Part shown: in pieces, positions 52,583 to 54,988 of the stretch | Numbering within the stretch: position 1 is the first letter of the stretch | Layout: every line of letters begins with the position of its first letter | NCBI GenBank assembly: GCA_947589325.1 | Contig: CANQAM010000004.1 | Coordinates: 49,122-113,121, forward strand | Length of the DNA stretch: 64,000 nt | Reading direction: 5' to 3' | Origin: an uncultured Bacteroidales bacterium | GTDB lineage: Bacteria > Bacteroidota > Bacteroidia > Bacteroidales > UBA11471 | Program-made: the position numbers and the translations under genes | The notes under the pieces: generated by a model | Seen by the model: the letters and a program-made list of their open reading frames with translations, nothing else | What the model was told of the DNA's origin: nothing | The model's database searches: none

Positions 52583-54988
52583 TTAGAATACAAAAATAGT
52601 TTCCAAATTAGTTTTCTCGAAGGTGAGTTTGTAAATCACAGGGAACTCTGCTTCGGGCTGTGATATGACCTCGACCGTTCCGAGTCCTTCCATCAGAGAT
52701 TTAATTTCGAATCCGCCTTGTCCCGAATGAAGTGTACCATCCGCAGCATCTTCGTTAAGAGCTGTTGAAAACCCACTCATCAAAACATCTTCACCAGACA
52801 CACCCGATTTCAACGGACGACCGTTATTGGCAATCGTAATCACGATTCCTCCATTTTCCGACGTCCAATCAAAACGGATTTCATTGTTTGTCGAGTCGGG
52901 AGTAAAGCCATGTGCTTTAGCATTGGCTACAATATTGTTGAAGATCCGTTCAAGCAACTTTTCGGGCGCATAAAATATGTGCAACGCATCCGTATGTTCA
53001 TTCTTTATACCGCCAGTTTCATCATCAAAGTCAGGTATATCAGCCACATTGTTATAGCCCAGGTTCACCATTCTCACAGAAGGATCTGCGTGATTAGCAA
53101 TATATTCGTTGATGAACTTGTAGGGATTGATTTCCGCGTCCTTTCCCCAGTCAGACTTTTCAAACCGTAAAGACTCGACTTGCCTTTGAAGAGTTGATAC
53201 AGCATACTCAATGCTCTTCATCAGATTTTCTACGGTGATCGGGTTGTTACGGCCAATGATATCCGTCAGCTTGATACCCTCCTTGTGCTGCTCTGCAAAC
53301 ATCTTGAACACTTCCCAGTTTGAAGAAAAAGCGGAAAGAGTCTGAATCATCGCATGACGTATGCTGCGCACTTCACGCTTCTGTGAATCCAGCGTTTTTT
53401 GGAGTTCTTCCTCCAAGTTACCCATTTCAGATGAAAGCACATCGGAAATCAACTGTTCACGTTCCTCTGCAGTTTCAGGTACGGGGACAATAATTTGTCT
53501 AAGATCCAATCTGTTCAGGCGAGGAATATTTTCACCGGTCGTCTGTGCTTTTATTTGGTCGGACACTATTTTTGTTGATAGAACAGCGGCAAGGTATTTG
53601 GCACTAATACTTTCTTCAACAGGTCTAAATACCTTTACAAAATCGGAAGGAAATGCAATTTTCCCGGTAAATCCTTCGGTATAGACCGTTCGTATATTAC
53701 CGTTGGCAATAGCCAGTATAACTGCGTTCTCCGGGACTTGTATTCGCTTTTTACTGGTTGACACCTTTTCGCCCTCAACTTTCGTAGGAATATATGGTTT
53801 ACGGTGCATTGCCGCCGGAATCGATGACCCTGTGATAAAATATTCAGCAAAAATGTCTTTACCCCAACCAAGTTCCGGTATTTCTTCAACGAGCACCGAT
53901 AGAGGAATACCATTTTCTGGCTTCGGAGTAAAATAGAAAAACGGTGTAAGATCCGAGCCAACTAAGTTTGCGTATGGTACGACAACGCCAGCCCGATCTC
54001 CATCTGGTTCATATCCTTCTTGAGTATCCTCAATGTCGGCTTCGAAGGCTTCCATGAAGCTCTCCAAATCAAAAGTCGTGGTCCGATACACGTTTTTGGC
54101 GAATCGAGTATGCCCGCTCGCATCGCCAAAATGAATTTCTTTATTCTCAACACCTTTCGTAAGCACTATGACTGCCTGAGCTGCAGATGAGCCTGTAAAA
54201 ATATTGGAAGGAAGCATAACAACCGTAGAGATTGCTTTCTCCTCGATTAACTTTTCTCGAATGGATCGAACCCTGCTATCTTTACGGAAAAGGAACTCCG
54301 CAGAGACAATGCACGCCAGTTTACCGCCATCGGCCAATTTATCGTAGAGAACCCTTACTATATCCGATATTGCTTTATTTTCCTCATGAAGATAGACCGG
54401 AGAGGCAATGATAGCCGAGAATTTTTCGTTTGTCTTCATTCGCTCAAACGAATCAGCCAAAGCAATATCAGCCCGTTTATCAGCAAAATTCGCAAACAAA
54501 CGTATTTGACCAAGCGCCCAAGTAGTTTGATTCAGTTCCTCGCCAACCACAGGGTTTGAAAGAGCAATGGCATACGAATTTGTCCCTGCAAATGGATTGT
54601 AAACAGTAACATTTTCAGGGAATGAAGCCATCTTGCACATAAAGTCAGTAACTTCCTGCGGCTGAATATCAACGATGTTTGTATAGGAATTCGCTTCCAT
54701 TGCAAACAACTCATTAAGATGTTTTGAAAGGAAATTAAGCTCCTCTTGTGTGAGAATATCTCTCTTGAATTCGTATTGATTCAAAATATTCAGCACATCC
54801 TGCCGAACCCTATTTCCGGCAGCAATTCGGTAAGTTTCTGTAAGAAGACCAAGAAGACCAGACTTGTTAAGAAAGTTTCCTGAAATTATCTCGTACCGAT
54901 TTACTAATTCGGTTACATCGTAACGAGTTTCTTCGACGTTGGCGATATTGAGCGACTGGTCTGCGGAAGTAGAGTTGTTTTTTTGCAT
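52583..54988 (-). CDS. Fusion protein: degenerate N6-adenine methylase (HsdM-like) + HsdS-like TRD segment + DHp-like helix + HATPase_c
   Basis: HsdM-like VTVYNPFAGTNSYAIAL…FSAIIASPVYL…LADGGKLACIVSAEFLFRKDSRVRSIREKLIEEKAISTVVMLPSNIF; HsdS-like IPRLNRLDLRQIIVPVPETAEEREQLI; DHp-like REVRSIRHAMIQTLS; HATPase N/G boxes LERIFNNIVANAKAHGF, IVITIANNGRPL, SGQGGFEIKSLMEGL. Confidence 0.82.
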   Translation of the reverse strand: MQKNNSTSADQSLNIANVEETRYDVTELVNRYEIISGNFLNKSGLLGLLTETYRIAAGNRVRQDVLNILNQYEFKRDILTQEELNFLSKHLNELFAMEANSYTNIVDIQPQEVTDFMCKMASFPENVTVYNPFAGTNSYAIALSNPVVGEELNQTTWALGQIRLFANFADKRADIALADSFERMKTNEKFSAIIASPVYLHEENKAISDIVRVLYDKLADGGKLACIVSAEFLFRKDSRVRSIREKLIEEKAISTVVMLPSNIFTGSSAAQAVIVLTKGVENKEIHFGDASGHTRFAKNVYRTTTFDLESFMEAFEADIEDTQEGYEPDGDRAGVVVPYANLVGSDLTPFFYFTPKPENGIPLSVLVEEIPELGWGKDIFAEYFITGSSIPAAMHRKPYIPTKVEGEKVSTSKKRIQVPENAVILAIANGNIRTVYTEGFTGKIAFPSDFVKVFRPVEESISAKYLAAVLSTKIVSDQIKAQTTGENIPRLNRLDLRQIIVPVPETAEEREQLISDVLSSEMGNLEEELQKTLDSQKREVRSIRHAMIQTLSAFSSNWEVFKMFAEQHKEGIKLTDIIGRNNPITVENLMKSIEYAVSTLQRQVESLRFEKSDWGKDAEINPYKFINEYIANHADPSVRMVNLGYNNVADIPDFDDETGGIKNEHTDALHIFYAPEKLLERIFNNIVANAKAHGFTPDSTNNEIRFDWTSENGGIVITIANNGRPLKSGVSGEDVLMSGFSTALNEDAADGTLHSGQGGFEIKSLMEGLGTVEVISQPEAEFPVIYKLTFEKTNLETIFVF

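Follow-up and report, generated by a model that had tools for sequence, protein, structure and literature searches.

Restriction systems are usually viewed as self-contained machines that recognise a site and cleave it. Among histidine kinases, HK853 has the receiver RR468 as its known partner, and kinases of the HisKA type usually carry an acidic base at the residue after the histidine (H+1). Kinase and receiver occur together in Detocs, a histidine kinase–receiver phage defence with a receiver-linked, ATP-cleaving phosphorylase effector. A further receiver-domain protein, Cam2, belongs to type III CRISPR loci and was described without an associated histidine kinase (PMC11229360).

The window analysed here, a 64,000-nucleotide stretch of DNA from an uncultured Bacteroidales bacterium, encodes a protein that joins parts of both kinds. 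Its gene, called the sensor, has an uninterrupted frame from the ATG start to the stop, and its homologues share the order of its domains. In the reading that we consider probable, its C-terminal part serves as the kinase in a cytoplasmic, defence-associated two-component system, which would sense DNA and pass phosphate from H545 of the sensor to D60 of the receiver encoded next door; we infer both the input and the output. The parts of the sensor are as follows.

52583 to 54988, minus strand: sensor gene, 801 aa, with an HsdM-like methyltransferase, an HsdS-type TRD, a coiled coil/DHp region and HATPase_c
54029 to 54661, minus strand: N6_Mtase-like domain, aa 110-320 (Pfam E 3.5e-22)
54584 to 54598, minus strand: methyltransferase motif I, NPFAG, kept (by comparison with the adjacent HsdM of relatives)
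54392 to 54406, minus strand: ASPVY in place of motif IV, NPPF/Y (same comparison)
53402 to 53797, minus strand: type I specificity (TRD) domain, aa 398-529 (Pfam Methylase_S E 5.6e-6, above the gathering score; PADLOC Specificity_I 1.8e-11)
53153 to 53446, minus strand: coiled coil/DHp region, about aa 515-612 (profile alignment with the DHp of HK853 and VicK)
53354 to 53356, minus strand: H545, predicted phospho-accepting histidine in an H-box of the form H-x5-L, invariant
52652 to 52963, minus strand: HATPase_c, aa 676-779 (Pfam and alignments)
52904 to 52936, minus strand: N-box, within HATPase_c
52814 to 52828, minus strand: G1 box, NNG, within HATPase_c
52715 to 52723, minus strand: G2 box, GQG, within HATPase_c

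The sequence-only reading of this DNA had described a C-terminal module resembling a histidine kinase. Such a module is present, but it makes up one third of a bigger protein, whose methyltransferase and TRD parts had gone undescribed. The histidine proposed there as the phospho-acceptor is H545, its codon placed correctly to the base, and the segments quoted, LEEELQKTLDSQKREVRSIRHAMIQTLSAF, NNIVANAKAHGF and SGQGGFEIKSLMEGLG, each lie within the 801-aa protein. The HATPase_c assignment was borne out as well: the window protein matches the Pfam model (E 2.5e-4), although by itself this match falls below the gathering score, and 11 of 12 homologues matched, the best at 9.7e-7. AlphaFold2 models of both proteins, sensor and receiver, were too poor for use (mean pLDDT 42 and 50); in the low-confidence model, the coiled coil/DHp region is helical.

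The nature of the module is best seen from its relatives. When 22 kinase modules with 13-80% identity to that of the window were aligned (alignment A7, in window numbering), the sole invariant residues were H545, N689, H693, N721, G723, G756 and G758. The same set emerged from a separate alignment of 23 rows, so that the histidine is present in 22/22 and 23/23 modules. The H-boxes of the family, which include RHAMIQTL, RHEIAGPL, SHILGKPL and AHDFGKIL, fit an H-x5-L pattern that can be compared with HELRTPL. Against the PDB, the A7 profile matched ThkA (4.7e-18) and HK853 (3.8e-13), the latter across both DHp and catalytic domain, with the family histidine placed onto that of ISHELRTPLTAI; the alignment with VicK likewise sets it in register with the H-box histidine. 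At E<=0.01, 46 of 47 PDB sequences were histidine kinases, CheA and bacteriophytochromes among them, and the remaining one was a designed coiled coil. MutL, Hsp90, GyrB and MORC chains were absent from these 47 matches, which answers the question left by the earlier reading of whether the domain groups with such ATPases; the histidine, kept in every homologue examined, also passes the second check named there.

Pfam families of the HisKA clan gave no match at E<=0.1 in 12 homologues, nor at E<=0.05 in nine further kinase modules, and because these models are silent the module is called divergent. The description of RHAMIQTL as a non-standard H-box and of the region as a divergent DHp was therefore apt. 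In the G1 box, Asn replaces the usual Asp (NNG/NTG), as it does in the crystallised ThkA (NSG) and VanS (NTG). The H+1 residue is Ala in the window sensor, and kinase activity may consequently be low or differently catalysed. The kinase is under purifying selection, with a dN/dS of 0.05 between two close relatives (L021 and L024). Taken together, the profiles, which were built in this analysis and on which the identification of both kinase and receiver rests, support a divergent histidine kinase with a HisKA-type DHp and a GHKL catalytic domain.

The next gene encodes the putative partner.

51479 to 52567, minus strand: cognate receiver protein, 362 aa, starting 15 bp past the sensor stop
52148 to 52567, minus strand: REC domain, receiver aa 1-140, the rest being a helical C-terminal domain
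52388 to 52390, minus strand: D60, predicted phospho-acceptor aspartate, invariant in 26/26 loci and in alignment A6
52169 to 52171, minus strand: K133, conserved receiver lysine, in 25/26 loci and invariant in A6

This protein has no match to Pfam Response_reg at its cut-off, nor to any nameable Pfam, NCBIfam or PADLOC family. A 24-row profile of the family, however, found 82 PDB sequences at E<=1, mostly receivers (best 5e-6), and aligned end to end with the RR468 receiver. Further signature residues are S/T101 and an acid (E/D) at position 13, each in 26/26; along with these residues, linkage to the kinase in all 26 loci is what would be expected of a response regulator. Foldseek with the poor receiver model gave no match at E<=0.001, the top one being PorX (3.4e-3), and this result was given no weight. 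In the C-terminal domain, R216 and H305 are invariant in A6, except in L104, where the apparent residues are spurious and the C-terminal part is AlbA_2.

Further support for the pairing came from pairwise distances. Those of kinase and receiver are correlated with r=0.85 (n=22, P=0.0002), or 0.77 without close relatives, and the values for kinase and adjacent HsdM are far lower (r=0.33 and 0.20). The kinase therefore travels with its receiver as one inherited unit, whereas the restriction genes around them are swapped. Kinase and receiver are almost certainly a real histidine kinase–REC pair.

At the other end of the sensor, the methyltransferase is eroded. Motif I is retained by most of the fused methyltransferases. 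Of 23 aligned sensors, one has a canonical motif IV, (D/N/S)PP(Y/F/W), as does the partial relative L002, against 12/12 of the adjacent HsdM proteins (NPPF/Y); the window sensor lacks this feature of active HsdM. Since motif IV is lost from most sensors and kept by their HsdM neighbours, the fused methyltransferase looks like a DNA-reading pseudo-enzyme, which likely binds DNA, and perhaps SAM, without methylating. The specificity part, by its Methylase_S match, has the TRD with S-type conserved helical region that marks HsdS.

There is one TRD in the window sensor. Close relatives carry, in addition, an N-terminal extension positioned like a second TRD, which matches no Pfam model. Between L021 and L024, identity is 90-98% across WYL, receiver, methyltransferase (97%), TRD2, kinase (98%) and HsdM, and drops to 32% in the N-terminal extension (L021:7416-8040 versus L024:5453-6160) and to 43% in HsdS. 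At the level of sequence, this pattern is the signature of exchange of a putative DNA-recognition domain, even though Pfam sees no TRD in the extension. The TRDs of sensors have no detectable similarity to those of HsdS from the same locus, such as might have pointed to a common target. The window sensor is without the extension: its N-terminus corresponds to residues 1-18 of the L021 protein and resumes at about residue 196.

The spread of the system was assessed by searching the receiver protein or its profile against three genome sets from the phylum and the order (297, 396 and 295 genomes) and then fetching the surroundings of the matches. The kinase–receiver pair was found in 26 Bacteroidota loci, and strong profile matches (E<1e-10) in 12/395 other genomes of the phylum and 10/294 other genomes of the order, or about 3%. 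The closest relatives are four loci from Bacteroides/Porphyromonadaceae MAGs (L021-L024; best-segment identity 54-69%). L002, a partial relative with 26% identity, comes from the same taxonomic order, and another relative, L034, lies on a Myroides plasmid. The recurrent cassette reads WYL, then the sensor with its HsdM-like, TRD and kinase parts, receiver, hsdM, hsdS, an accessory gene in some cases, and hsdR. The HsdM-TRD-kinase form occurs in 23 loci; a WYL gene adjoins it in 16 of these, and in 11 the gene after the receiver is hsdM. Restriction genes do not follow the pair in several loci, the window among them. No relative was found in the viral contigs scanned, and a viral origin was rejected on this ground; the phage collection gave a single receiver match, an unverified faecal scaffold.

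Some loci depart from the common arrangement. In L103 (5759-8974, plus strand), a like kinase and receiver sit inside a type III-A CRISPR operon, with csm5 on one side, a TIGR02221/DxTHG gene on the other and cas6 next; this kinase retains the histidine and the N and G boxes. Two loci, L107 (3381-5615, minus strand) and L110 (4762-6963, plus strand), have an HNH endonuclease-like domain and a TRD instead of the methyltransferase, joined to the same kinase module. L104 (2438-3385, plus strand) encodes a fusion of receiver and Schlafen AlbA_2 (Pfam 6.4e-15), followed by an AAA_5 (McrB-like) gene. The sensor gene of L115 (482-1874, minus strand) is broken across two overlapping frames and is apparently disrupted. 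In L022 (4103-4600, plus strand), RHRWLSLTRPWHVWNPSH-like tandem repeats containing unresolved bases replace the N-terminal extension, within the ORF that precedes the sensor domains, and a NERD-helicase gene takes the place of the hsd genes after the receiver gene.

How such a pair might work can be proposed from its parts. The HsdM/TRD part would be a (pseudo)methyltransferase that binds its own DNA site. The state of that site, for example in unmethylated invading DNA, would be reported by a shift of the HsdS-like coiled coil, which runs into the DHp helices, and this movement would switch autophosphorylation of H545. Phosphate would then pass to D60 of the receiver, and the phosphorylated REC would act through the helical C-terminal domain; its target may be the restriction enzymes next door or the WYL protein, or it may itself be an effector. 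That the input is DNA, either the target itself or its methylation state, is slightly favoured; this is drawn from domain identity and from the segment exchange in one locus pair, L021/L024. That the output is directed at the adjacent restriction genes is a tentative suggestion, for which we would give somewhat less than even odds. More broadly, the chances appear evenly balanced that these are widespread 'restriction two-component systems' of Bacteroidota, in which a catalytically dead HsdM-S would serve as the kinase's sensor of DNA methylation or foreign DNA. The pair shared by type I restriction, a McrB-like locus, a type III-A CRISPR operon and HNH-TRD sensors would then represent a phosphorelay from sequence-specific nucleic acid recognition.

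Other explanations have to be weighed against this DNA-sensing defence relay. The one that survives best, though we regard it as unlikely, is purely regulatory: the kinase would sense DNA or restriction status, and phospho-REC and WYL would only set expression of the locus, thereby avoiding self-restriction when hsd genes enter a new host. The adjoining WYL gene of those 16/23 loci fits this, as WYL proteins are known repressors of defence operons (BrxR/CapW, as cited in PMC12255303). Yet no recognisable DNA-binding domain was found in the receiver protein, several loci have no WYL gene at all, and outside the close clade the distances of kinase and WYL are weakly correlated (r=0.18, P=0.08).

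Unlikelier still is that the pair provides defence by itself, with phospho-REC as the effector, either through its helical domain or through the fused AlbA_2. The invariant R216 and H305, the faint resemblance of the domain to HEPN/DUF4145, the AlbA_2 fusion of L104 and the loci whose fetched sequence has the pair but no restriction genes (L108, L109, L110 and the window) speak for it. Against it, the HEPN RNase motif R-x4-6-H is absent from the helical domain, and the comparison with DUF4145 by hhalign is weak (probability 3.5%, P 0.012), even if the R and H are in the right register.

A third possibility concerns the window alone and is bound up with the genes around the pair.

55026 to 56051, minus strand: WYL and WCX regulator, which opens the cassette and ends 37 bp upstream of the sensor gene (Pfam WYL 2.7e-12, WCX 2.4e-12)
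50534 to 50782, minus strand: IS4/5-family transposase fragment (DUF4096), downstream of the pair, where relatives have hsdM/S/R
56887 to 58566, plus strand: type III restriction mod, upstream and divergent from the kinase cassette
58568 to 61315, plus strand: type III restriction res, likewise

The WYL, sensor and receiver genes all lie on the minus strand, separated by 37 and 15 bp, and the assembly has one copy of the module. Genes like the hsdM and hsdR of L021 are absent from this assembly, which is 91% complete, and the window has no hsd remnants. The window module is an orphan, with the hsd genes absent and one recognition segment missing, and it must therefore act alone or on something else. 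That it is a decaying, functionless remnant in this genome is what these losses and the transposase fragment would suggest. This is improbable: all three ORFs are intact, catalytic residues are retained, and the kinase module is still 80% identical to that of L021 with a dN of 0.127 and a dS of 2.6, synonymous sites being saturated between the window and its relatives.

Finally, a GHKL ATPase acting mechanically or gating the methyltransferase without phosphotransfer, the other option of the sequence-only reading, might be argued from the unmatched HisKA models and the non-acidic H+1, but it was rejected as very improbable on the set of invariant residues, the histidine above all, the kinase-only profile matches, the adjacent receiver with its conserved D and K, and the position of HATPase_c at the extreme C-terminus, where no S5-type transducer domain follows.

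If the DNA-sensing reading is true, a methyltransferase-specificity sensor kinase would let the cell signal the entry of unmodified DNA before, or instead of, cutting it. The histidine-kinase superfamily would likewise gain an input absent from the literature searched, namely the presence or methylation state of a DNA sequence. As the His-Asp pair is common to restriction, CRISPR and HNH loci, it offers a single point at which several defence systems could be probed, and such pairs suggest that Bacteroidota can convert DNA recognition into a phosphorylation signal. The open-access full texts searched were found to describe neither an HsdM-TRD-histidine kinase nor its receiver, and given this scope the novelty of the system is provisional. 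Fig. 6 of the DefensePredictor paper uses HATPase and REC as abbreviations for a predicted system left unspecified, with which there may be overlap.

Several described systems can be compared with the pair. Like Cam2, it can have a receiver domain within a defence operon; unlike Cam2, it pairs the receiver with a kinase. With Detocs it shares histidine kinase and receiver proteins used for defence, whereas Detocs is not known to have a methyltransferase/TRD sensor, and scans of the receiver family and of neighbouring genes found no domain of the Detocs phosphorylase type. The mad2 (methyltransferase) and mad5 (S subunit) models of MADS are weakly similar to the sensor, but only in its M and S parts, and the receiver matches no MADS model. 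HK853-RR468 of Thermotoga maritima is similar in its DHp and catalytic domains, with the histidine in register, in a receiver that aligns end to end and in having kinase and receiver as separate genes; it differs in that the input here is HsdM-TRD and the receiver has an added helical domain, while the RR468 type stands alone. Type I HsdM/HsdS shares the N6_Mtase fold with motif I, the TRD and the coiled coil of HsdS, and the true hsdM, hsdS and hsdR often lie in the same operon as the pair. In contrast to these subunits, the sensor unites M and S in a single chain, has lost motif IV in most copies and has gained a kinase at its C-terminus.
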